A stretch of 64,000 nucleotides of DNA from Desulfobaculum xiamenense (GTDB lineage: Bacteria > Desulfobacterota > Desulfovibrionia > Desulfovibrionales > Desulfovibrionaceae). The stretch is from NCBI RefSeq assembly GCF_011927665.1, contig NZ_JAATJA010000002.1, forward strand, positions 682,001 to 746,000, written 5' to 3'. Below, piece by piece: positions 40,315-56,827 of this stretch; within the stretch, counting starts at the first letter, position 1; every line of letters begins with the position of its first letter. The notes beneath the pieces are model-generated. The model saw nothing but the letters and a program-made list of their open reading frames with translations. It was not told the origin of the DNA and did no database searches. The position numbers were made by a program, and so were the translations under genes.

Positions 40315-40805
40315 CCGCTGCGCGGGGCATAGCCTTCGGCGACCGGGGCGCTGCCCCGGCCCCGCTCAAGGGCCGTGGGCCCTTGAGAATCCCAACTAGG
40401 GCTTCGTTGTGCAAAGCCGTACGGCTCGCCAAGGGCAGACGGCTTGTCGCATGTCGGGGTTCCAAGGGGCCAGCGGCCCCTTGGCCGGCGGAGCCTACGT
40501 CTTGCACCTGTCAGTGAACGATACGCCCAGCCACTGCGACAGGGCGGAAGCCGCTGCGCGGGGCGAGGCCTCCGGCGACCGTGGCTCTGCCCCGGACCCG
40601 CTCAAGGGCCGTGGGCCCTTGAGAATCCCAACTAGGGCTTCGTTGTGCAAAGCTGTACGGCTCGCCAAGGGCAGACGGCCTATCGCATGTCGGGGTTCCA
40701 AGGGGCCAGCGGCCCCTTGGCCGGCGGAGCCTACGTCTTGCACCTGTCAGTGAACGACACGCCCAGCCACTGAGACGGCGCGGAAGCCGCTGCGCGGGGC
40801 GAGGC
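40315..40805. repeat. 236-bp direct repeat, two full copies plus a fragment
   Basis: Copy 1 is 40315-40550 and copy 2 is 40551-40786, head to tail, with few mismatches. A third partial copy (40787-40805, CCGCTGCGCGGGGCGAGGC) ends at the stop codon of the PilT-like gene. Each copy holds two perfect hairpins: CTCAAGGGCC/GGCCCTTGAG (copy 1 at 40365-40387) and CCAAGGGGCC/GGCCCCTTGG (copy 1 at 40462-40484). It fills the gap between converging genes. The palindromes resemble REP-like extragenic elements; open frames through it are an artefact of composition. Confidence 0.85.
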
Positions 40806-42016
40806 TAGCGTTCGGTGATGCGTTGGATGATTTCGTCGAGGGGGGCGGAGTCGTCGATGACGTATTGCGGGTCATCGGCGGTGGCGGGGCGCAGGGCAAA
40901 CTGCGGCATTGAGGGAGTGTTGGCGAATCCGGGGCGTCCGGCGTCGTAGTCGAGCAGCGCTGAGCGGTGTTCGGCTTCCTGCGCGGTATCGCGGGAGGGG
41001 CGCAGGCTGACGGACGGCGGGGTGAATGCCGCACGCGTGTTGAGAAATTCCTGCTCGTATCGGCGCAGGGAGAACATGCCGTCGCGCTTTCCGGTCTCCA
41101 TGATGTTTTCGATCTGGGAGAACTTGTTCTCGCGGATGGTGGTTCGCACGGCGTCGTTTCCGCGCAGAATGGCGAGGTGCGGCACGCGGTAGCCGACGCT
41201 GGGGAGCATGGTGAGGTGCTGGACGATGACTCCGGCGAGGCAGGAGGAGAGTTGCAGGCGCACGAACTCCTGTGCTTCGAGCGGGAAGGAGTTGCAGATG
41301 CGGTAGATGGCTTCCTCGGGCGTGCTGGAGTGCAGGGTGGAGATGACGAGGTGGCCGGATTCGGCGGCGTTGAGGGCGAGGCGCATGGTTTCGGCCTCGC
41401 GCAGCTCGCCGACGACGATGACGTCCGGCGCCTGCCGCAGCACGTCGATAAGTCCCTGCCCGTAGCTTTGGAAATGCAGACCGTGCTCACGCTGTTCGAT
41501 GAAGGACTGCCCCGAGCGGAAACGGTATTCCACTGGGTCCTCCATGGTGACGATGTGCGCGGAGCGGGTGCGGTTGATCTCGCCCAGCATGGCGGCGATG
41601 GTCGTGGTCTTGCCGCTTCCGGTCGCTCCGCAGAAGAGCAGCAGGCCGGAGCGCAGCGAGCAGAAGTCCTTGAGGCTCGGGTGCAGATTCAGGGATTCGA
41701 TGGTGGGCGTGGTTCCCGGCAGAAAGCGGATGGCCATGGACAGCCCGCGCGTGGTGGAGAAGACGTTGATGCGCAGGCGCGCGCCGGCCTCGGTGATGGC
41801 AAAGTCCACGGACCAGCGACTGCGCAGGGTTTCCTTCTGGCGCGGGTTGATAAGGCGCGCCACCAGCGTGTCCACCTCTTCCGGGGAAAAGGCGGTCTTG
41901 CGTTGCGGAAACACCTGCCCGTGCTTGCGGAACACCACGGGGTGTCCGCCGGTGATGTGCATGTCGGTGATGCCGTCCTTGAGACAGGCCACGACGAGGC
42001 TTCTGAATCGCTGCAT
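40805..42016 (-). CDS. PilT-like retraction ATPase
   Basis: 403 residues from ATG 42016, with GGAGG upstream. N-terminal PAS-like part (about 1-100), then the RecA-like core: Walker A CGATGSGKTTT (about 129-138), Asp-box around TMEDPVEYRF, Walker B DVIVVGELREAET and His-box GHLVISTLHSSTPEEAIYRI. Pattern fits PilT/PilU (retraction) rather than PilB, and lacks the zinc CxxC pairs of assembly ATPases. The C-terminal 60 residues are an extension not seen in minimal PilT. Last gene of the pseudopilin operon. Confidence 0.83.
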   Translation of the reverse strand: MQRFRSLVVACLKDGITDMHITGGHPVVFRKHGQVFPQRKTAFSPEEVDTLVARLINPRQKETLRSRWSVDFAITEAGARLRINVFSTTRGLSMAIRFLPGTTPTIESLNLHPSLKDFCSLRSGLLLFCGATGSGKTTTIAAMLGEINRTRSAHIVTMEDPVEYRFRSGQSFIEQREHGLHFQSYGQGLIDVLRQAPDVIVVGELREAETMRLALNAAESGHLVISTLHSSTPEEAIYRICNSFPLEAQEFVRLQLSSCLAGVIVQHLTMLPSVGYRVPHLAILRGNDAVRTTIRENKFSQIENIMETGKRDGMFSLRRYEQEFLNTRAAFTPPSVSLRPSRDTAQEAEHRSALLDYDAGRPGFANTPSMPQFALRPATADDPQYVIDDSAPLDEIIQRITER

Positions 42017-42041
42017 CTGCGTGTTCCTCCGGGGAACAACT

Positions 42042-42980
42042 TTAGCTTTCCGGGGGAGTGTAGTCCACAAGCGCACGCAATGTTTGCGGAAACGCCTTTT
42101 CCTCGGCCAGATCGAATGCCGTCCTGCCCGATGCGTCGGCCCGTGCGAGGTCGACGAAACCGGTGAGGAGTGGACGCACGGCGTCGATGGGGTCCGCCGT
42201 GGCGAGGCGGATGGTGGCGAGTACGATGCGCTCGCGCGAGTCGAAGATGTCCGCATCGGGCAGCAGGCAACCGAAGATGGCCTGTCCATCGCCGTGGTGG
42301 GCGGTCATCAGGCATTCGCTACCGTCGGGGCTAGGGAGAAATTCGAGGTTCATACCGCGCGGAAGCGGAGCCGCGCCGTGGCGTTCGAGGTCGCGCAGAT
42401 TGCCCGCAAAGCGAGCGTGGTTGATGAAGTGGTCCATCTGGGCGCGGATGTAGCCCTTGAGCGCGAGACGCGTGAAGCGGTCGTACTCCGGGGTGAGGCC
42501 GCCAGTGCCGGTCTGCGTGTCGATGAAGTCGTCGAGCACGCGCCGCCAGTCTGCGTCCGTGGGCGGCACGGGGCGGCCGGTGGGCGCGCCGAAGCGGATG
42601 AGGCGATAGCTCTCGCGGGTGTCATCCGTGGGGCGCAGTTCGAGGGCGAAGGGCGTCTGGCCCTTGTCGCCGTTGTCGATGACGCCTTCGACGAAGGGGC
42701 CGTCCGGATTGATGCCGTCGAGGTCCGTTGTGGCGTGGAAGTCTTCGTCGCAGTGGGCCACCAGCGCCTCGATGGTGAAGCTACCGCGCACGGCGTCGGG
42801 ATCGACGAACGCGGCGATGGCCGCCTCGCGCAGGATGCCGTCCGGCGCGTCGACGAGCTTGTGCGCCGTACCCGCGTCGTTGCAGCCGGGAAGGACGAGG
42901 GCCAAGAGCGCGCACACGGCAAGGAGCGCGCGGCGCGGCGCAGCGTAGGTCGAAAGCGAAAATCGGTCGAATCGGTGCAT
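42042..42980 (-). CDS. Predicted lipoprotein of the pseudopilin operon
   Basis: 312 residues. A basic N-terminus and hydrophobic core (ALLAVCALLALVLPGC) end in a lipobox-like VLPGC, so Cys33 is a likely lipidation site. The mature protein is acidic and soluble. Its C-terminus, DASGRTAFDLAEEKAFPQTLRALVDY, resembles one ankyrin repeat. I do not recognise a family for the central part. Co-transcription with pseudopilins suggests a pilus-related periplasmic or outer-membrane role. Confidence 0.6.
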   Translation of the reverse strand: MHRFDRFSLSTYAAPRRALLAVCALLALVLPGCNDAGTAHKLVDAPDGILREAAIAAFVDPDAVRGSFTIEALVAHCDEDFHATTDLDGINPDGPFVEGVIDNGDKGQTPFALELRPTDDTRESYRLIRFGAPTGRPVPPTDADWRRVLDDFIDTQTGTGGLTPEYDRFTRLALKGYIRAQMDHFINHARFAGNLRDLERHGAAPLPRGMNLEFLPSPDGSECLMTAHHGDGQAIFGCLLPDADIFDSRERIVLATIRLATADPIDAVRPLLTGFVDLARADASGRTAFDLAEEKAFPQTLRALVDYTPPES

Positions 42981-43002: not shown

Positions 43003-46000
43003 CTAGTTGGAGTACATGATGGGTGCGCGGAAGCCCTTGCCGCCGCGGCCCGTCCAGGCCTGGAATCCGAAGTCGTCGAAGTAGAGGTTGGTTGCCGTGT
43101 TGCCGACTGCGTGGATGCCGAGGTCCGTCGATTGCAAGGCCATCCCTGAATCCGGGGAAAGAAGCGTGCTGATGGTGACGATGGAATTCTGCTCCTCCGC
43201 TACGGATGTGGTGACATTGGTGGCACCCCCGCTGACGTTGTCCCATTGCACCAGCGTCATGCAGTCGTTGTTGGTGGTGAGGGACTGCCTGTCGTCCGGC
43301 GGCCAGTGGACCTCGTTGCGCGGGTTCGCGTGGCGGTTGTTGTCGTTCCATGCCGTTCCGGTGGTACCGTGTGCGGTCGTGTCGCCGTAGAACGCGCGGA
43401 TATAGTTTGTCTTTGCGCCGAGGGTGCCGGTGAGGGTGAGCGTCCCCTGCGAGCCGTCGGGATTCTCGAAGAGCACGCCGCCGGTGCTGCGGATGTTCCC
43501 CTTGATCTTTGCCAGAGGCAGAGTGCCCTGAACATTGCCACCGCCGCCCCATGTCCTGCGGGTGAGGATGGGCTGACCGGCCAGACGCGCGCTGCCCGGG
43601 GTGTCGCCGCCGATGTTGATGACGGCACCGGACATGATGGGTGTGGAGGCCGGTGCCGTGAAATTCATGGGTTGGGCTTCCACGAGCCGCAGCATGAGCG
43701 TGGACCATGGCTTCATGCGGAAGTTCGGATAGGAACCGGAGAGAACGGAGTCGCTGGCGTCGAGAATCTTGTAGGCCAGCCACTTGAAGCCAGCGTCCGG
43801 GCTTGTGGCATCACGCGCCCAGAGCACGATTGCGGGCTGGGAGTAGCGGTGCTCCGGCCACCAGAAGCCTTGGTCCCACCGTTCCATTGTCCCGGTGAAG
43901 AGTTGGCTTGGAACGATGGCGTTAGGAACTTCGTCCACGTCGCCATCGAGGAACGTTGAACTGTACCATTCTCCGACTCGCTTCACCTGACGCGCGCGAA
44001 GGTAGGAGAGGCCGTAGGTGAAGAGTTCGCTGCCGCTGCTATTGTTCTGCATGCGGAAGGTGATGCCGCCGACCCAGTAGCGGTTGTCGTCAAGACTTCC
44101 AGGGCCGACGTACAGCTTGAGCTGCGCATCGTAGCTGAGCGTGTTGCCGTTGGTGCGCCAGATGCTGCTCAGGTTCACCGGCGAGCCAGCGCCGGGGCTG
44201 AAGGAGATGTTGCTCCAGTACCCGGTGTTTCCGAACAGTGAGATGTTCTCCGATCCTGTTACATCCAGCGCGTTGCCGCCGTCGACGTTGGCGATGGTGT
44301 GCGAGCCGATCTGTCCTCTGTCGTGCCCGCCCGTGGCGAAGTTCGCGTTGATGTTGTCGAAGCGTTCATGCAGGCTCGCGCGTTCCATGTCGTCGCCCGC
44401 CTGCGTCCAACCGATGGGCGTCAGGTAGGTCAGCGTGTGCGATGCGTCGCCGAGCTGGCCCGTGGTGCGGATGGTGACGAACTTGTCGAGGGCCACCACG
44501 TCTCCGGACGTGACGGAGACGGCGGGGAAGTCCGTGGTTGGGCTGTCGGCGAGGCGGATGCCCGTGAGCGTGGAGCCGACACGGCGCTGGTAGGTGTAGG
44601 TGTTGCTATCAGATGAAATGGTGAATGCGCCGCTGAATTCCGGGAAGGCGTCCGCACCGCTTTGCAGAACGAGATCGTTGGTGCGGCTGAACGTGTCCGA
44701 GGCCGCCGTAGCTCGGGGCAGGGCCTCGAAGCCGGTGAAGTCGTAGCCCGCGGCGGACGTGGTCAGGGAGAAGACGAGCCTCGGGACGGTGTATCCTTCG
44801 TAGCTTGTCGTGGAGCGGGTGACGCCGTTGTAGTTGAAGGGCACGCCGTTGACGAGCAACTGGCCAGAGTCCGGCGGAAAGTTGTTGTCCAGTTCGCCGA
44901 GGACCACCGTTGTCAGTTGCGTGTTGTTGTTGCCGGTCACCTCGAACCAGCGGGGGCGCATGCGGATGGTAAAGCTGCCATCGCCGTCGGCGAGGGTATA
45001 GGTCTTGCCGTGGAGTTCGAGGAGCTTGGTGTCCTTGTTGGTGCCGTCTGCAGTCAGATACTCGTGGGCGGCCACGGCGTATCCTGCCTCCGCGAGGTAG
45101 AAGGCGCGGCTACCACGGTTCATGACGGTCTGGTCGGTGATCGAGGTCGTGAACATGGGGACCATGGCCGCGCCCACGATGCCCATGAAGACCATGGCAC
45201 CGATGACGGCGAGCATCACGCTGCCCCGCGCGTGATCGAACATGTTGCGGTCACGGTCTCGGGGGCGGCAGGCGCGGCGGACGGCGCGTACGGCCAGCGG
45301 CGTGCCAAGCACGACGCCTGCGGCCGCCCATGGCGACCACAACAGCAAGAGCGCCAGCCCGGTGAGCGGCAGCAGGGCCACATAGGCCGCATCGCGCGCC
45401 CATGGGCGCACGCGGATGTAGTCCGCCCACGCCGGGCCGTTGGTGTAATAGAAGTCCACGAAGGCGCGGCCGCCGTCCCATGTCAGCAGGAAGCGGTCGC
45501 GGAAGTTGCGCAGGGCGATGACCATGGGGTGCGTATCCCCACCGCACGCGGCCGTGGCCACGAAACAGTAGTCCGGCACCTCCGGCACTTCGTCGGGCGG
45601 CGGCGAGCCGCCGAGATTGTTGTTGTTGCGCGGCAGAACGGTGGTGGACACCGTGAGCGTTCCGGCGCTCTCGTGCTGGTAGGCCAGATTGATGCGGATG
45701 GCCGACAGCAGCTCGATGTCGTCGGAGGTGCGCCACGCGTTGGTTCCGCTGAAGGGCGTCAGGGTGAAGCCGCTGACGTCGTCGATGAGCACATGCCCGG
45801 TGGAGGCGGTGGGCAGCGTCCTTCCGTCGATGACCTTGATCTGGTTGCCGACGAGGGCGATGGCGCGTCCATTGGAGTTCCCGGGGCGTTCGAACACGAT
45901 GTGGTCCGAGGTGGGGCTGTCCATGTTGCTCACGGCCATGACCTCGCGCAGTTCGCGTTCGAGGCGCATGATGGCGAGGTCGAGCTTCTGGCTCGTCTCC

Positions 46001-46149
46001 GTGTTTTCGCGGGTGAGCAGATAGCCGCGTGCGCCCTCGGTGATGAACATGCCGCCCGCCACGGAGATGATGCCGAGCAGGACTGTCGTGGCGATGAGTT
46101 CGATGAGGGTGAAGCCGTTGCCTCGGGGATGGGTGGGCGTGTGCGTCAT
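43003..46149 (-). CDS. Pseudopilin - CFI-box - PilX-like fusion protein
   Basis: 1048 residues in one frame. Part 1 (1 to about 190): prepilin peptidase site GNGFTLIEL at 11-19 and a PilW-like minor pilin. Part 2 (about 190-300): YCFVATAACGG followed by ALRNFRDRFLLT, AFVDFYYTNGPAWADYI and two hydrophobic helices with a basic end. This matches the CFI-box C-terminal sorting-type domain. Part 3 (303-1048): a fresh MFDHARGSVMLAVIGAMVFMGIVGAAMV start like PilX/PilK N-termini, then a long beta-rich region with TWG, NNN and concanavalin/laminin-like stretches. Parts 1-2 and part 3 look like two genes joined by loss of a stop; ATG 45243 could still be an internal start but has no good ribosome site. 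Confidence 0.75.
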   Translation of the reverse strand: MTHTPTHPRGNGFTLIELIATTVLLGIISVAGGMFITEGARGYLLTRENTETSQKLDLAIMRLERELREVMAVSNMDSPTSDHIVFERPGNSNGRAIALVGNQIKVIDGRTLPTASTGHVLIDDVSGFTLTPFSGTNAWRTSDDIELLSAIRINLAYQHESAGTLTVSTTVLPRNNNNLGGSPPPDEVPEVPDYCFVATAACGGDTHPMVIALRNFRDRFLLTWDGGRAFVDFYYTNGPAWADYIRVRPWARDAAYVALLPLTGLALLLLWSPWAAAGVVLGTPLAVRAVRRACRPRDRDRNMFDHARGSVMLAVIGAMVFMGIVGAAMVPMFTTSITDQTVMNRGSRAFYLAEAGYAVAAHEYLTADGTNKDTKLLELHGKTYTLADGDGSFTIRMRPRWFEVTGNNNTQLTTVVLGELDNNFPPDSGQLLVNGVPFNYNGVTRSTTSYEGYTVPRLVFSLTTSAAGYDFTGFEALPRATAASDTFSRTNDLVLQSGADAFPEFSGAFTISSDSNTYTYQRRVGSTLTGIRLADSPTTDFPAVSVTSGDVVALDKFVTIRTTGQLGDASHTLTYLTPIGWTQAGDDMERASLHERFDNINANFATGGHDRGQIGSHTIANVDGGNALDVTGSENISLFGNTGYWSNISFSPGAGSPVNLSSIWRTNGNTLSYDAQLKLYVGPGSLDDNRYWVGGITFRMQNNSSGSELFTYGLSYLRARQVKRVGEWYSSTFLDGDVDEVPNAIVPSQLFTGTMERWDQGFWWPEHRYSQPAIVLWARDATSPDAGFKWLAYKILDASDSVLSGSYPNFRMKPWSTLMLRLVEAQPMNFTAPASTPIMSGAVINIGGDTPGSARLAGQPILTRRTWGGGGNVQGTLPLAKIKGNIRSTGGVLFENPDGSQGTLTLTGTLGAKTNYIRAFYGDTTAHGTTGTAWNDNNRHANPRNEVHWPPDDRQSLTTNNDCMTLVQWDNVSGGATNVTTSVAEEQNSIVTISTLLSPDSGMALQSTDLGIHAVGNTATNLYFDDFGFQAWTGRGGKGFRAPIMYSN

Positions 46150-46159
46150 GGTGGCCGTC

Positions 46160-46579
46160 CTATCGTGCGAAGAGCGTGACGACGGTCTGGTCGCCGACGG
46201 TGATGCGGACCTTGAGAATGTTGTCGCCCGAGGGGGCGGTCTGTTCCATGCCGCTGCCGTCGAAGGAGATGTATTTCGTCTCGACGGTGTAGGTGCCGTA
46301 GTGCCCGCCTTCGAGGCGGCTTTTGAGGGTCGAGAGGGCCGTCTGCGATGCCGAGGGGTTGTCGGCCAGCAACTGGCGGTAGTCTGCGCTGGCGGCCTCC
46401 ACGACGCCCTGCGCCGAGCCTCGGTCGAGCACGCGGACCACCGGCAGGGAACTGTGCGCCACTGCGCTCATCATGTAGTTGGCCACGATGGTGGCCACGA
46501 AGGCGAGCAACACGATGGTGACGATGATCTCGATGAGCGTGAAGCCGTGCTGGCGGCTGCGGGCGTGACGCGACGTCAT
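46160..46579 (-). CDS. Minor pseudopilin (PilV/GspI-like)
   Basis: 139 residues. The type III signal is GFTLIEIIVTIVLLAFVATIVANYM with the peptidase site after G12 and the Glu at mature position 5. The globular part is small. It overlaps the preceding pseudopilin stop as ATGA, and precedes the fusion protein by 10 nt. Confidence 0.85.
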   Translation of the reverse strand: MTSRHARSRQHGFTLIEIIVTIVLLAFVATIVANYMMSAVAHSSLPVVRVLDRGSAQGVVEAASADYRQLLADNPSASQTALSTLKSRLEGGHYGTYTVETKYISFDGSGMEQTAPSGDNILKVRITVGDQTVVTLFAR

Positions 46580-47061
46580 GGAATGAACCCCGTGTCTGCG
46601 GTGACGGTCAGCGTTTCGGGAGTGCGGTCGGGCATACTGAGGGTAATGGTCCAGCCTGCGGTGGATGCGGCGATGCCCTCGCCCGTGGCGGCGGGTTCGC
46701 CATTGGCGTCGAAGGTGACGGTCCATGCGCCTGCGGAGATGCCGTCCGGGATGGTGCGCACGATGTCGTTTTCCGCGGGCAGGTGTTCCTGCGTGGCCGT
46801 GGTGCCGTGGAAAAGGAAGTAGGACGTTCCCGCACTGCTCACGCCCCACGGATCGCTAGTGCTGAGCGCCATGTGCTGGGCGTAGCGCAGGTGCCGTTTG
46901 AGCACTTCGCTCTGGGCGCGCAGGTTCACATCGAACAGGTTGCCGAATCCGGCGATGGCCGTGGCGGCCATGATGCCGAGGATGGCGATCACCGCGATCA
47001 GTTCAATCAGGGTGAAGCCGGAAGCGTCCGTGGCGTGCGAATGGAGGCGTGGTCTGTGCAT
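46576..47061 (-). CDS. Minor pseudopilin (FimT/GspH-like)
   Basis: 161 residues. Prepilin site GFTLIELIAVIAILGIMAATAIAGFG beginning at residue 15. The following region VNLRAQSEVLKRHLRYAQHMALSTSDPWG is typical of GspH/FimT pseudopilins. First gene of the pseudopilin operon, with a -24/-12 promoter about 70-85 bp upstream. Confidence 0.87.
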   Translation of the reverse strand: MHRPRLHSHATDASGFTLIELIAVIAILGIMAATAIAGFGNLFDVNLRAQSEVLKRHLRYAQHMALSTSDPWGVSSAGTSYFLFHGTTATQEHLPAENDIVRTIPDGISAGAWTVTFDANGEPAATGEGIAASTAGWTITLSMPDRTPETLTVTADTGFIP

Positions 47062-47251: not shown

Positions 47252-48151
47252 TCATACGCCTTTTTTTTGTGGCGTCGCCGTGTGTGCGGCATTCGCATCG
47301 CTCGTTTCGCCATACCAGCCTACTGTGGTCATGAGCGGCAGATTCCGCGAGCCGAAGCGCCGAAACGTGACGCGGTTCAGGAAGAGATTCCAGCGCAGGC
47401 GCATGCGGTCCCCGAATCCGTAGTGCTCGGGAAGTTCCGTCGCCTCGGCGGAGGCGTCCACGGCCTCGGCAAGGCTCGCTCCCTCGGCAAGGCGCTTGGT
47501 CACGTGGGCCATGCGGATGAGGTCCGTTCCGGATTTCGGCACGGGCACATAGGCAACGCCCTCGTTGCCCGCCATATCGTGCAGGGCCTTGCGACAGGCC
47601 GGGCAGGAGGGCGAGAAGTACAGCCGCACGGGCGAGACCTGCGGTCCGGCGATGATCCATGGCTGCGCGGTTTCCTGCGCGACGGCGGCGAGGTTGGGCG
47701 TGAGCGCGCACAGCCACACGACGCCGAGCGTCAGCATGGCGGGCCGGGCGAGGAATTTGCCGGAGTAGAGGCAGAGGAAGACGAGCGCGAAGAGGCTTCC
47801 GGCCAGCAGGCAATTCACGCACGTGGCGGACAGCGCCATCCAGCCGAGCAGCAGGATGTCCACGCCGAGGGCCACGGCGGCAAGCCCGCGCGCGAGGTCG
47901 AGATGTTTGCGAAAGCACAGCCCGCCGAGTGTGACGAAGCACGCCGCGCCCCACCACCACAGGGAAAGGCCGAGGAACGATGTGCCCCGGTAAAGCTCGC
48001 AGCCGGACGTTATGCATGCGCTGTCGAGCGCGCCGATGGCGGCGGCGATGCAGAATGCGGCCCCCGCGAGGGAGCAGAGGATGCAGACGCGGCGTTTCCC
48101 GGCGGCGTTTCGTTCGCGAACGTGCAGGGAAGGGAATGTGGTGGTGCCCAT
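47252..48151 (-). CDS. VKOR-thioredoxin-like disulfide oxidase
   Basis: 299 residues with about five membrane helices. A pair of cysteines in DSACITSGCEL and a CVNC motif (near residue 110) match the loop and active-site cysteines of bacterial vitamin K epoxide reductases, which re-oxidise DsbA-like proteins. A periplasmic C-terminal half carries SPSCPACRKAL, a thioredoxin-like CPAC. The fusion would therefore introduce disulfides by itself. It stands alone between the pilus operons, where Cys-bearing pilins are encoded. Confidence 0.75.
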   Translation of the reverse strand: MGTTTFPSLHVRERNAAGKRRVCILCSLAGAAFCIAAAIGALDSACITSGCELYRGTSFLGLSLWWWGAACFVTLGGLCFRKHLDLARGLAAVALGVDILLLGWMALSATCVNCLLAGSLFALVFLCLYSGKFLARPAMLTLGVVWLCALTPNLAAVAQETAQPWIIAGPQVSPVRLYFSPSCPACRKALHDMAGNEGVAYVPVPKSGTDLIRMAHVTKRLAEGASLAEAVDASAEATELPEHYGFGDRMRLRWNLFLNRVTFRRFGSRNLPLMTTVGWYGETSDANAAHTATPQKKGV

Positions 48152-48645
48152 GAGTGCCTCGTACGATGCCCGCGAGGGCAGGATTTTTTGACGTTCACAG
48201 CGTGCGTGCGCCGTGCTCCGGCGTGCGGGCTGGCGCGGGAATGTTCCGCCATGAAATGAGCCGGTTGGCTATGGCGGTTGGCTCATTCCTAACGTGAAGG
48301 CCTGTGCCTGTCAGCAGTTTTCGTCAGGAATTTGAACCGGCCAGCCCGCGCCCCGTCTGGCTTGGTTGGGGAACATCATTTTTTGGAGGTGGCGCTCCAA
48401 ACTGTGGAGCATGGTCCTTGCTGGGCATCACACCATGGAGCGTGGATGTGGGGGGAGTGTATTGGGCTTGCGTTCCCGTCGTGCCTGCCTCTTGCAATTT
48501 CCCGGAATCGCGTGGATACTTTCGCCGACGCTGACCGTCATCCGTCGTACGCTCTGGCACGGAAGATGCTACCTGATTGGCGTGAAGCGGGTCTCGGATG
48601 GCCCGGGGCCATGAGTCTCATACTCGAACACAAGAGGAGATGGAG
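48152..48645. other. Intergenic region upstream of the major pilin gene
   Basis: 494 bp. It contains an 8-bp inverted repeat, AATGAGCC (48255-48262) with GGCTCATT (48280-48287), and a -24/-12 promoter listed separately. Open frames in it lack ribosome sites and recognisable families. The region probably holds upstream activator sites for the sigma-54 promoter, but no repeat motif was clear enough to name. Confidence 0.4.
48555..48570 (+). promoter_or_regulatory. Candidate sigma-54 promoter of the major pilin gene
   Basis: TGGCACG (48555-48561), 4 nt, then ATGCT (48566-48570): a perfect -24 element and a near-perfect -12 element at canonical spacing. Predicted start near 48,582, about 65 nt before the pilin ATG. 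This is typical of pilA-type promoters driven by PilR-like activators. Confidence 0.75.
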
Positions 48646-49047
48646 ATGAAGCAGAACAACAGAAAGAAGAACGGCTTCACCATGATCGAACTGATCGCGG
48701 TGATCGTCATCCTCGGCATCCTGGCCGCCGCCGCTGTGCCGAGATTCCTTGATGCGCGTGCTGACGCGCGTGAGGCTGCGGCTGATGGGATCATCGCCGC
48801 ATGGCAGAGCGAGTGCAGCCTCCGCGTGGCCAATGCAGCGTTGAATGACGCGACTACTATCGTGTGCCCCACCGGCGCTGCCGCGGACACCTCTTGGACT
48901 CATGAGGTGGCGAATTCTGGCCTGTCCATCGTTGGTGCAGTGGGTACAGGTACTGGCGGAACGGGCCAGTGCACCTTCCAGGTTACGGGTACTGGATTGA
49001 CCAGATCAGTCACCTACACTCTCCCCACTGGATTTACCGGTAGCTGA
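48646..49047 (+). CDS. Major pilin (type IVa/MshA-like)
   Basis: 133 residues from ATG 48646 (AGGAG 6 nt upstream; ATG 48640 is also in frame). The leader MKQNNRKKNG is cut before FTMIELIAVIVILGILAAAAVPRFLDARADA, a textbook type IV pilin N-terminus with Glu5. The globular head has three cysteines (SECSLR, IVCPTG, GQCTFQ). Monocistronic with its own sigma-54 promoter and terminator, as expected for an abundant subunit. Confidence 0.9.
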   Translation: MKQNNRKKNGFTMIELIAVIVILGILAAAAVPRFLDARADAREAAADGIIAAWQSECSLRVANAALNDATTIVCPTGAAADTSWTHEVANSGLSIVGAVGTGTGGTGQCTFQVTGTGLTRSVTYTLPTGFTGS

Positions 49048-50483: not shown

Positions 50484-51701
50484 TCATCCCGCCATTTTGG
50501 TCAGGTCCCACATGGGCAGGAAGATGGCCAGCGCGAAGAAGCCCACCACGCCCGCGAGGACGAGGATGAGGATGGGGCCGATCATCTCGGCCATTTTCTT
50601 CACGGAGTATTCCACCTCGTAGTCGTAGTGGCTGGCCACCTCGCGCAGCATCTCGTCCAGATTGCCGGACTCCTCGCCAATGGCGATCATGGTGATGATG
50701 AGCGGGGTGAAGAAGGGCGAGGACTTGAGCGGCCGGGAGATGCCCTTGCCTTCCTGCAACTGGTCCTTGAGATTTTCGAAGACGCGCTCGATGGCGGCAT
50801 TGCCGATGGTCTGCGCCAGCACGCTCACCGAGTTGATGACCGACACGCCGCTGGACTGGAGCAGCGCGAAGATGGCGGCGAAGCGGGACATAGCGGCCTT
50901 GAGCATCACCTTGCCGATGAGCGGACAGCGCAACAGGAACTTGTCGCGCACCAGCCGCCCCTGCGGGGTGCGGCAGTACATGACCAGCGCCGTCACGCCG
51001 AGCACAACGCCGCCCACGATGAGCGGCCAGTAGTTGTTCAGCCCATCATACAGGAAGATGCACACGCGCGTGGGCATGGGCAATTCGATCTTGGCCGAGG
51101 CGAAGATGCCCATGAACTTCGGGATGACGAAGGTGAGCAGGAAGATGAACGCGCCGAATAGCGCCGTCACCACGATGGCCGGATAGGTCAGGGCCGACTT
51201 GATCTGCTGCTTGATCTCGAACTCATGCTGGATGATGTAGATGAGCCGCTCCAGCACCTCGGACAGATTGCCGCTGACCTCGCCCGCGCGCAGCATGCTG
51301 CAATAGAGATTGTCGAAGATGCGCGGGTGCTTGCTGAAGGCCTCGTAGATGGTCGTGCCCTGCCGGATGTCCTGTGAGATGGCGATGACGGCCTTCTTGA
51401 GCTTGGGGTTCTCGGTCTGTTGCTCCAGCACGTCGAGGACGTTCAGGATGGACAGGCCCGCGTTGACCATGGTCCGGAATTGCTTGGTGAACAGGATGAG
51501 GTCGCCGGGCTTCACCGTGGCGAGCATTTCGTCGATGGCCTTGAAGTTTAGCGAGAGGCTTGCACCCGCCGGGCGCACCTCCGAGGGCAATAGACCCTTG
51601 GAGACGAGCATGTCCAGCGCGAGTTCCGTGCTGTCGGCCTCTATGACGCCGCTGACGGGCGATCCCGAGTCCGTGATGGCTTGATATCTGAATTTCTGCA
51701 T
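50484..51701 (-). CDS. Pilus/T2S inner-membrane platform protein (PilC/GspF/MshG)
   Basis: 405 residues. Two GspF domains (about 70-195 and 275-395) with three membrane helices around 170-190, 220-245 and 375-400. Motifs such as FTKQFRTMVNAGLSILNVLDVLEQQT and GEESGNLDEMLREVA are conserved in the family. It anchors the assembly ATPase to the membrane. It lies 16 nt after the ATPase gene. Confidence 0.9.
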   Translation of the reverse strand: MQKFRYQAITDSGSPVSGVIEADSTELALDMLVSKGLLPSEVRPAGASLSLNFKAIDEMLATVKPGDLILFTKQFRTMVNAGLSILNVLDVLEQQTENPKLKKAVIAISQDIRQGTTIYEAFSKHPRIFDNLYCSMLRAGEVSGNLSEVLERLIYIIQHEFEIKQQIKSALTYPAIVVTALFGAFIFLLTFVIPKFMGIFASAKIELPMPTRVCIFLYDGLNNYWPLIVGGVVLGVTALVMYCRTPQGRLVRDKFLLRCPLIGKVMLKAAMSRFAAIFALLQSSGVSVINSVSVLAQTIGNAAIERVFENLKDQLQEGKGISRPLKSSPFFTPLIITMIAIGEESGNLDEMLREVASHYDYEVEYSVKKMAEMIGPILILVLAGVVGFFALAIFLPMWDLTKMAG

Positions 51702-51716: not shown

Positions 51717-53426
51717 TCAGATGAGGACCGTCGAGGCGGCTTCTTCGAGGGTGGTGATGCCCTGAAGAACCTTTTCCGCGGCGTCCTGCTTCAGGGTGTG
51801 GAGCTTTCCGGCCTCCATGGCGGCGCGGGTGATGTCCGCCGACGAGGCGCGGGCCATGATCATGTCCTGAATCTGCTCGTCGATCTCCAGCACCTCGAAC
51901 ACGGCGATGCGGCCCGAGTAGCCGGTGTTCTTGCACATGCGGCAGCCCGTGCCCCGGAGGTAGGTCTGGCCGGTTTCGGGCAGGCCCATGGCGCGAAGCG
52001 CCGGTGCCGGCGGCTGGTATTCTTCGAGGCAGTGCGGGCAGTTGCGCCGCAGCAGGCGCTGGGCGATGGATACCAGCAGCGTGGAGGCCACGAGGAACGG
52101 CTCGATGCCCATGTCGATGAGGCGCGTCACCGCGCCCGACGCATCGTTGGTGTGCAGGGTGGACAGCAGGCGGTGGCCGGTCATGGCGGCCTGTACGGCG
52201 ATGCCCGCCGTCTCGCCGTCACGGATTTCGCCCACGAGGATGACGTCCGGGTCCTGCCGCAGGATGGAGCGCAGGCCGCTGGCAAAGGTCATGCCCGCGC
52301 GGCGGTTGAGCTGCACCTGCCGGATTTTCGCGACGCGGTATTCCACCGGGTCTTCGAGGGTGATGATGTTGATGTCCGGCTGGTTCAGGCGCTTGAGCGC
52401 GGCGTAGAGGCTGGTGCTCTTGCCGCTGCCCGTGGGGCCGGTGGTCAGAATCATGCCGTAGGGCTTGTGCAGCGCATTCAGGACCTTGGCGCGGTCTGCG
52501 TCGGCCATGCCGAGGTCTTCGAGATTGGCGATCTGACCGTCGCGGGCGAGCAGGCGCAGGATGATGTTCTCGCCGTGGATGGTGGGCAGGCTGGAGGCGC
52601 GCACGTGGATGTCCCGCTTCTCGAACTGGAAGGAGAAGCGGCCGTCCTGCGGGATGCGCGACACGGCGATGTCCATGTGCGCGAGAATCTTCACGCGCGA
52701 GACCAGCGGCAGGAAGTAGCTTTTGGGCGGAGCGGGAATCTCGCGCAGCTTGCCGTCCACGCGGAAGCGAAGCTGGATGTAGTTCTTCTCGGGGCTGATG
52801 TGCACGTCGCTCGCGCCTTCGCGCACGGCCTGCGAGAGGATCGAGTTCAGGAGCTTCACCACCGGAGCCTCGGAGGCCATGCCTTCGAGGGAATCCACGG
52901 CGAGGTCCTGCTCCGCCTCCGGCAAAGCGTTCTCGTCTGTCTGGATTTCCGCGTTCTCCATCGCGCCGAGCACGTCATCAAGGTCCGACTGGATGCCGTA
53001 GGTGGCGTAGGTCAGTTCCTGCAATTCGCGTTCGGTGCAGATGATGGGGTCCACTTCGAGGTTGGAGAATATCTCCACCGCGTCGATGGCGTTGATGTCC
53101 ATGGGGTCGGACATGGCGACCGTCAGCAGCCGCCCCTTGCGCTGCAGCGGCACGAGGTTGTGCTTCTGCGCGAGGTCTGCGGGCACGAGGTTTTCCGCGC
53201 CCACCTCCACGGGGTAGGTGTCCGCCTTGTAGGTGGGAATCTTGAGCTGTCTGCTGACAAGTTCCACGATCTGGGATTCCTTGAGGAACCCCTTCTGAAC
53301 GAGATACTGGCCCAGTCGCAGGCCGGAGGAGGACTGGTCCTTGAGGATGGCAGGGAGTTCCTTGTCGTCCAGAAGTCCGGCCTGAACGAGCATCTCGCCG
53401 AGTCTCATGCGTTTGCGAACAGTCAT
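51717..53426 (-). CDS. Pilus assembly ATPase (PilB/GspE/MshE)
   Basis: 569 residues. N-terminal GspE-N domain (about 1-150, with LGEMLVQAGLL and LGQYLVQKGFL repeats that bind c-di-GMP in MshE-type proteins). Walker A GPTGSGKST (about 330), Asp-box LEDPVEYR, Walker B DPDVILVGEIRD, His-box GHRLLSTLHTND. Zinc-binding CPHC and CRMC pairs near residues 458 and 490 mark assembly rather than retraction ATPases. The duplicated N-terminal LGxxLVxxGxL pattern suggests c-di-GMP control. Confidence 0.92.
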   Translation of the reverse strand: MTVRKRMRLGEMLVQAGLLDDKELPAILKDQSSSGLRLGQYLVQKGFLKESQIVELVSRQLKIPTYKADTYPVEVGAENLVPADLAQKHNLVPLQRKGRLLTVAMSDPMDINAIDAVEIFSNLEVDPIICTERELQELTYATYGIQSDLDDVLGAMENAEIQTDENALPEAEQDLAVDSLEGMASEAPVVKLLNSILSQAVREGASDVHISPEKNYIQLRFRVDGKLREIPAPPKSYFLPLVSRVKILAHMDIAVSRIPQDGRFSFQFEKRDIHVRASSLPTIHGENIILRLLARDGQIANLEDLGMADADRAKVLNALHKPYGMILTTGPTGSGKSTSLYAALKRLNQPDINIITLEDPVEYRVAKIRQVQLNRRAGMTFASGLRSILRQDPDVILVGEIRDGETAGIAVQAAMTGHRLLSTLHTNDASGAVTRLIDMGIEPFLVASTLLVSIAQRLLRRNCPHCLEEYQPPAPALRAMGLPETGQTYLRGTGCRMCKNTGYSGRIAVFEVLEIDEQIQDMIMARASSADITRAAMEAGKLHTLKQDAAEKVLQGITTLEEAASTVLI

Positions 53427-55210: not shown

Positions 55211-56827
55211 CTACTGGTCACCGTTTTCGTCGTCGGTCTTCTCGTCGTATTCCTTTTCGAGCTGCTCGATGTTCTTCGTCGGAGTGCCGTCGGACCATTC
55301 GCTCAGGATGGACGGCGTGATGAAGATGAGCACCTCTTCGAGGGAATTGGACTTGCTGTCGCTGGAGAAGAGCTTGCCGACGCCCGCCACGTCCTTGAGT
55401 CCGGGAATGCCCGTGTCGCCCGTGGAGGCGCGGTGCTTGGTCAGGCCGGAAATGACGACGGTCTCGCCGTCTCGCGTGACGAGGGTGGTCTCGGTCTGCT
55501 TCTTGATGATGTAGGGATTGCCCTGCACGTTGCGGGTGAGGTCCACCTCGTCCTTCTTGACCTTGATCTTGAGCTTCATGACGTCGCTGTCGATGACGTG
55601 CGGCGTGATTTCGAGGCGCAACACGGCGTCCTTCCATTCCACGTCGGCATTCCCGGCCTCGTCCAGCGAGATGTAGGGCACTTCCGCGCCGTTCTCGGTG
55701 AATGCGGTCTGGTTGTCGAGGGTGGTGATGGACGGACTCGACAGGATGCGCAGCTTGTCGTCGCTTTCCAGCGCGGCCAACTGGGCTTCGAGAATGTTAC
55801 CGCCGATCTTGCCGAACATGAGGCCAAGCGACAGGCCCGAGCCGTCCTTGGGGAAGGTCTTGGGGATGAAGCTGGACACCATGCCGTGACCGGACAGGCC
55901 GTTATTGTTGTTGTTGAGCGTGGGCGTGGTGCCGCCGCCCTGAACGGGATCGGTGCCGACGGTGCCGCCGGTGCCGCCCGGGACGACCCACATGTTGTTG
56001 TTGTAGCCGCCCATGCCGTCGCTTTTGAAGCCGCCGCCCCACTGGATGCCCAGTTCGCGCGCGGTGTCGCTGGTGGTCTCCACGATGTGGGCCTTGAGCT
56101 TGATCTGGCGGCTAGGCCGGTCCAGATGCTCCACCAGCTTCACGATGCGGCGGACGTCCTCCGGGATGGCCTGCACGACGAGGGCGTTGGCCTGCGTGTC
56201 GACCTCCACGGTACCACGGGCCTTGCCCTCGCCATCCTGCGTGAGCATCTTGCCCAGATACTCCTGAAGGCTGGCGGCCTCGGCGTAGCGGATATTGAGC
56301 ACGGTGGTCGCCAGCGGCTGGCGATTCCTGAGGGCGTTGAGCTTGATGGAGGTTTCGAGATCCTCCGGCGTCATCACGCGCAGGATGTCGCCTTCCCACT
56401 CGTAGGCGAGGCCGTTGGTCTTGACGATGCTCTTGAATATCTCGTTCCACGGCTGGTTGACGATGTTCACGTTGACGGAGCCGGAGACGTTGGGGCTGAC
56501 GATGATGCTCTGTCCGGCGATGCGGCCCAGCGCCTGCAGCACGGCCACGATGTTGGCGTCGTGCATGCGCAGGGAGACGACCTTGGTCGGCAGCTCCTTT
56601 TCGGCGATGACGGCCTTGTCGACCTCGGCCGGGACGAGCGGTTCGTAGGTATGCGGTTTGAAGGAGGGGGAGTGCCCTTCCGACTGGGCCGCGATGGTCT
56701 TCCACTTCTCAAGGAACTTCTCGGACTCCTTGGCCTTCTTGTCGTGGGCGCAGCCGGCGATCGCAAGGATCAGACAAAGGGCCAGGGCGCCGAGCAGAAT
56801 GGGCTTATTGCGGGATTCTCTGCGCAT
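55211..56827 (-). CDS. Secretin lipoprotein (MshL/PilQ type)
   Basis: 538 residues. Signal peptide with lipobox ILAIAGC (Cys about 26). STN-like N-terminal domain (about 80-150), secretin_N domain (about 165-245), then the channel domain to about 500 with LMFGKIGGNILEAQLAALESDDKLRILSSPSITTLDNQTA and EITPHVIDSDVMKLKI. A variable Gly/Asn-rich insertion (about 270-320) interrupts the start of the secretin core. It forms the outer-membrane pore. MshL is favoured by gene order beside MshM-like and MshE-like genes. Confidence 0.9.
   Translation of the reverse strand: MRRESRNKPILLGALALCLILAIAGCAHDKKAKESEKFLEKWKTIAAQSEGHSPSFKPHTYEPLVPAEVDKAVIAEKELPTKVVSLRMHDANIVAVLQALGRIAGQSIIVSPNVSGSVNVNIVNQPWNEIFKSIVKTNGLAYEWEGDILRVMTPEDLETSIKLNALRNRQPLATTVLNIRYAEAASLQEYLGKMLTQDGEGKARGTVEVDTQANALVVQAIPEDVRRIVKLVEHLDRPSRQIKLKAHIVETTSDTARELGIQWGGGFKSDGMGGYNNNMWVVPGGTGGTVGTDPVQGGGTTPTLNNNNNGLSGHGMVSSFIPKTFPKDGSGLSLGLMFGKIGGNILEAQLAALESDDKLRILSSPSITTLDNQTAFTENGAEVPYISLDEAGNADVEWKDAVLRLEITPHVIDSDVMKLKIKVKKDEVDLTRNVQGNPYIIKKQTETTLVTRDGETVVISGLTKHRASTGDTGIPGLKDVAGVGKLFSSDSKSNSLEEVLIFITPSILSEWSDGTPTKNIEQLEKEYDEKTDDENGDQ

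Follow-up and report, generated by a model that had tools for sequence, protein, structure and literature searches.

A single open reading frame of Desulfobaculum xiamenense raises the question if one gene can deliver two type IV pilin subunits. Within the 64,000-nucleotide stretch of DNA analysed here (the window), 1048 codons without a stop run on the minus strand from 46149 down to 43003, as confirmed by a reading-frame check of the window. A preliminary description of this 1048-residue frame, which had left the strand out, had considered either two genes fused by recent stop loss or a true polyprotein cut by a sorting enzyme after its CFI-box helices. Comparison of related sequences suggests that the frame encodes an unreported pilin polyprotein that would be cut into its parts. 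In the open-access papers searched, which represent part of the literature, no report on pilin polyproteins or on the CFI-box was found.

The frame (43003..46149, minus strand, as for all parts given in the following) can be described as a putative fused tip-prepilin J-CFI-K of 1048 residues, based on the open frame, family models and the conserved fusion, and an AlphaFold model of the fused chain was built from 35 fused sequences. The first prepilin signal encompasses residues 1-32 (46054..46149) with the motif NGFTLIE and Glu at +5; the N-terminal signal that had been claimed was recovered by TIGR02532 at residues 11-32 (20.3 bits, cut-off 16.3), and G12 and E17 are invariant in 35 aligned fused proteins. 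The first part shows the hydrophilic leader, the Gly at -1, the hydrophobic helix and the motif match of a type IV prepilin (class III signal). It continues with a GspJ/PilW-type pilin body, residues 33-180 (45610..46053), assigned by model matches to XcpW and EpsJ and by the T2SSJ profile, and is followed by a CFI-box domain with the invariant Cys195, residues 195-262 (45364..45567), present in single copy in the D. xiamenense genome. The preliminary description was right on the presence of this domain, which matches NF041770 (CFI_box_CTERM) over its full length (72.4 bits, cut-off 40). Its position is not C-terminal: it covers residues 195-262 of 1048, lies in the middle of the frame in every fused copy and, in contrast to the known CFI_box_CTERM domains, would need the proposed cut to end up at a C-terminus. 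Two predicted hydrophobic helices, 249-271 and 273-294, form the return membrane segment (45268..45405; hydropathy and AlphaFold helices) and are followed by a basic stretch, in agreement with what had been described. The basic variable linker (45223..45279), with residues 295-308 disordered in the AlphaFold model, ends at Gly309, and the alignment predicts Gly309/Ser310 as second prepilin-peptidase site. The second pilin-type N-terminus likewise stands where it had been placed: it begins with M303 at nt 45243, after the hydrophobic helices and the basic linker, and reads MFDHARG/SVMLAVIGAMVF. Residues 310-586 (44392..45222) constitute a second pilin of probable PilX/GspK type without Glu at +5, with a 59-residue helix and a beta domain (models; PilX_N in relatives), and residues 587-1034 (43048..44391) a concanavalin/lectin-like module (structure match of the model).

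Two pilin-like units with long first helices, 15-68 and 308-366, are found in the AlphaFold model. The J half was matched with its model residues 46-177 to XcpW (5bw0; Z 12.0, rmsd 2.6, 122 aligned) and furthermore to EpsJ (3cfi, 2ret; Z 10.7-10.8), and the T2SSJ profile matches 3/35 fused members; in the model, the first pilin is of GspJ-type fold. The second pilin has Gly/Ala at -1 and then a long pilin helix of 59-60 residues (models and alignment), and its core modelled by itself reached a pLDDT of 90. Weak PilX_N matches in 6/58 relatives, the absence of Glu at +5 from the second pilin in the alignment of the fused proteins and its position after J suggest that it is a K-type (PilX/GspK-type) subunit. 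Among the solved folds searched (Foldseek, VIA) the K core matched no GspK and gave generic beta-barrels at Z about 7 only, and sequence profiles compared with solved structures returned for the second part the pilin helix alone or nothing useful. Residues 587-1034 resemble in the model comparison ConA-type lectin domains (Z 13-15) and the PilC lectin module of S. sanguinis (7oa7; Z 10.0), so that the second part is, according to the model, a modular pilin with a predicted lectin-like (ConA-like) module. Such a second pilin with a grafted ConA-like module is in analogy to the modular pilins PilB/PilC of S. sanguinis, from which it differs in being the downstream part of a proposed polyprotein.

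The neighbourhood of the fused gene is a type IV pilus cluster. On the minus strand it encodes an I-type minor prepilin (46160..46849; TIGR02532, PF07963) with its motif at ORF residue 100 and the true start probably near 46585, an H-type (GspH-like) minor prepilin (46576..47061; TIGR01708 1.1e-10, below its cut-off), a PilT-type ATPase whose true start is probably inside the ORF (40805..42289; TIGR01420 323.6 bits, over cut-off), a PilC/GspF-type platform protein (50484..51701; PF00482 2e-61), a PilB-type ATPase with an MshE-related c-di-GMP-binding N-domain (51717..53426; family models) and a PilQ-type secretin (55211..56827; TIGR02515 303.6 bits, over cut-off), and on the plus strand a major-pilin-like prepilin (48598..49047; TIGR02532 33.1 bits). 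A PilM-like protein is also encoded in this neighbourhood, and a complete PilD (PF06750 and PF01478) in the D. xiamenense genome. The J half with GspJ fold, the adjacent genes for H, I, major pilin, ATPases, platform and secretin, and a second pilin that lacks Glu5, as the capping subunit does, all resemble the HIJK tip complexes of type IV pili and type II secretion systems (PilHIJK; XcpVWX, EpsIJ). However, the known sets are encoded by separate genes, while J and K are here joined to one polypeptide via CFI domain, return helix and linker. The cluster contains further genes: the fused pilin gene is separated from pilT by a predicted lipoprotein with the lipobox LVLPGC and no family match (42042-42980, minus strand), and 47252-48151 (minus strand), inside the pilin cluster, encodes a membrane protein rich in Cys, in which CxxC and thioredoxin-like CPAC motifs occur; it looks VKOR-like by eye and had no match in Pfam or NCBIfam. 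The pilin genes of the sister genome adjoin a similar thioredoxin-like gene (L002 3326-3751).

The same fused layout was found in at least 36 distinct copies from sulfate-reducing and related bacteria, including other genera and three or more classes (among them Desulfovibrionia, Syntrophia, Desulfobacteria), which is more than chance would give. A scan of species genomes yielded 80 loci, of which 31 are fused, with fused copies in Smithella, Syntrophaceae, Desulfosarcina, Desulfobacterium, Desulfococcus, Nitratidesulfovibrio, Halodesulfovibrio and unclassified relatives; the fused/split frequencies are biased, as the scan pattern gave preference to K proteins with the motif [QKR]A[YF][YF]LAE[SA]G. 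Among 395 genomes drawn evenly from the phylum, eight, the window included, had stop-free full-length matches of the junction, and a family-wide CFI search returned the single-frame fusion also in other genera of the family. One fused copy (L084 7995-9488) has a second part that ends early (498 aa), possibly by a frameshift or an assembly break. The same-genus relative G001 encodes two genes with an 11-base overlap, gene 2 starting in the +1 frame within the end of gene 1 (...ARHVA, then stop). Taken alone, this split would point to a fusion by one base in the window, which is countered by the fusion in other genera; the comparison of the junction in relatives, as proposed in the preliminary description, therefore speaks against a recent fusion despite the separate genes of G001. 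As the same stop-free frame is present in independent genomes of many genera, the fusion is real and old. Split loci with CFI segment and helix intact are limited to G001 and L071, for which reason the two-gene overlap was rejected as a general rule. Some split loci (L073, L107) retain a CF[IV] stub without helix, suggesting that the fusion was lost there. A quick tree, in which the direction of change is not fixed, requires about nine changes between the fused and split state, at least five of them on well-supported branches.

The fusion goes along with a return helix after the first part. By a simple hydrophobicity criterion this helix is present in 36/36 fused but only 2/38 split loci (raw Fisher p 4e-19, kinship ignored), and on the starred branches of the tree about four of five independent contrasts support the association and none is against it. 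In six fused copies (L065, L088, L092, L093, L103, L115) the CFI domain is deleted, down to Cys-Phe, one helix and the linker; these copies keep exactly one helix and a positive net charge of the linker. Cys195 is present in 35/35 fused proteins, CFI-deleted stubs included. CFI proteins that are helix-free and apparently soluble exist as well, one with a cold-shock domain (L039, G254) and one a repeat protein (L061, G107), from which it follows that the CFI domain is not solely a sorting signal; these two proteins weaken the idea that CFI boxes serve generally as sorting signals.

Of the 35 aligned fused copies, 34 carry Gly and one carries Ala at residue 309, the -1 position of the second pilin helix, while the surrounding linker varies freely in length and sequence and is otherwise unalignable. 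According to a review, prepilin peptidase works on the cytoplasmic side of the membrane, cleaving behind a Gly or Ala (PMC10191384). Judged from the alignment, the conserved site would represent a second prepilin-peptidase site, about 15-50 residues downstream of the CFI helices and on the predicted cytoplasmic side. An ATG within 30 codons upstream of this site is missing in 17/35 fused versus 6/45 split copies (p=0.001), and an ATG with a Shine-Dalgarno match is present in 4/35 fused versus 17/45 split copies (p=0.01). Return helix and linker show a dN/dS of about 0.55 within Nitratidesulfovibrio, estimated from pooled, non-independent pairs. The rarity of internal starts in fused compared to split copies, together with this dN/dS, argues that the joint is translated.

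A fairly probable reading of the locus is a tip-pilin polyprotein J-CFI-K with three membrane crossings, which would be cut at Gly309 by the ordinary prepilin peptidase PilD. J would insert N-in/C-out with its own prepilin helix, and behind the CFI domain the chain would pass from outside back to the cytoplasm through a single return helix; the basic linker would remain cytoplasmic, enabling the K helix to insert N-in, i.e., from inside to outside. On the cytoplasmic side PilD would then make two cuts, behind Gly12 and behind Gly309, so that the pilus tip would be supplied with J-CFI-helix and mature K at 1:1. These would be the same proteins for which G001 has two separate genes. Topology, internal cut, stoichiometric benefit and the identity of K are what we infer within this proposed mechanism. 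The true polyprotein considered in the preliminary description is supported by the comparison of relatives. Several points stand against the proposal. A multi-pass leader of about 300 residues is, to our knowledge, not among the known substrates of prepilin peptidase. After the cut J keeps a C-terminal helix, which could act as membrane anchor; the helices 249-271 and 273-294 of the window could form a hairpin, leaving the linker outside; and in the four fused copies with ATG and Shine-Dalgarno match in the linker K might also be started internally.

Alternatively, the fusion stays uncut and takes part in the tip complex as a single subunit of tethered J and K, with the return helix packed in the membrane or in the filament core. 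J and K are adjacent in tip complexes (PMC10191384) and the extra helix is present in every fused copy, both in favour of such a subunit. However, 35/35 copies have Gly/Ala at -1 despite a linker that is free to vary, and two separate proteins are produced by relatives within and outside the genus, which makes the uncut subunit unlikely.

In a two-enzyme relay, the cut by PilD would expose a C-terminal tag on J, composed of Cys195, the helix and the basic end, and a second membrane enzyme would process or lipidate J at Cys195. The second step is conceivable because not even the shortest stubs lack the invariant Cys195. This relay, which would couple pilin maturation and surface sorting through a single precursor, has to be regarded as quite unlikely.

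An internal in-frame translation start could be the main source of the two products, the readthrough chain being incidental. The ATG of M303 in the window, five codons before the second site, and the four fused copies with ATG and Shine-Dalgarno match are consistent with it. Against it, in about half of the fused copies the 30 codons next to the site contain no ATG, and linker and return helix stay open under some constraint at the protein level. A stop is easily gained, yet just two split copies with intact CFI and helix occur. As main source an internal start is improbable.

An equally improbable explanation is a dedicated sorting enzyme that cuts near Cys195 and the return helix in analogy to the MYXO-CTERM system. 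The invariant Cys, helix and basic stretch are shared with the MYXO-CTERM/JDVT-CTERM tags processed by myxosortase-family proteases (PMC11980579), Cys195 persists even in CFI-deleted stubs, and the D. xiamenense genome encodes two MrtJ-type proteases of the JDVT-CTERM system over cut-off (L205 1486-2211 and L207 1471-2028; C2:76783-77040 and C2:834031-834303). In contrast to these tags, Cys, helix and basic stretch are here followed by a pilin instead of the chain end, and no co-distributed protease was found: MrtJ over cut-off is absent from most of the fusion carriers, among them Nitratidesulfovibrio and Halodesulfovibrio G188/G189, and from the sister G001, and the search for a cognate peptidase suggested earlier revealed no protease conserved beside the fused gene in 32 loci. 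CFI domains in helix-free, apparently soluble proteins also speak against it. A search for JDVT-CTERM substrates returned no match anywhere, with controls also blank. An A24 peptidase lies at a distance of about 7 kb from the second MrtJ-type protease (L207), and a further prepilin motif at about 3 kb. The sorting enzyme of the preliminary description finds no counterpart in this distribution, and the conserved site is of predicted prepilin-peptidase type.

A recent accidental stop loss, as first considered, or a one-base sequencing error near 45250 is extremely improbable: the +1 frame of gene 2 in G001 and a TGA just before ATG 45243 in the window's other frame would fit it, but it is contradicted by independent genomes from many genera that have the same fusion (Nitratidesulfovibrio, Halodesulfovibrio, Smithella, Syntrophaceae, Desulfosarcina and others).

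If the internal cut of the J-CFI-K polyprotein is true, prepilin peptidase would also be a polyprotein-processing enzyme, and one gene would fix a 1:1 ratio of two tip subunits. The locus would furthermore provide a natural tethered J-K pair to study how the pilus tip starts, and the role of the CFI box would be that of a re-entry adaptor. The proposal predicts that a whole pilin together with a membrane hairpin may be used as prepilin leader, which bears on substrate recognition by PilD.
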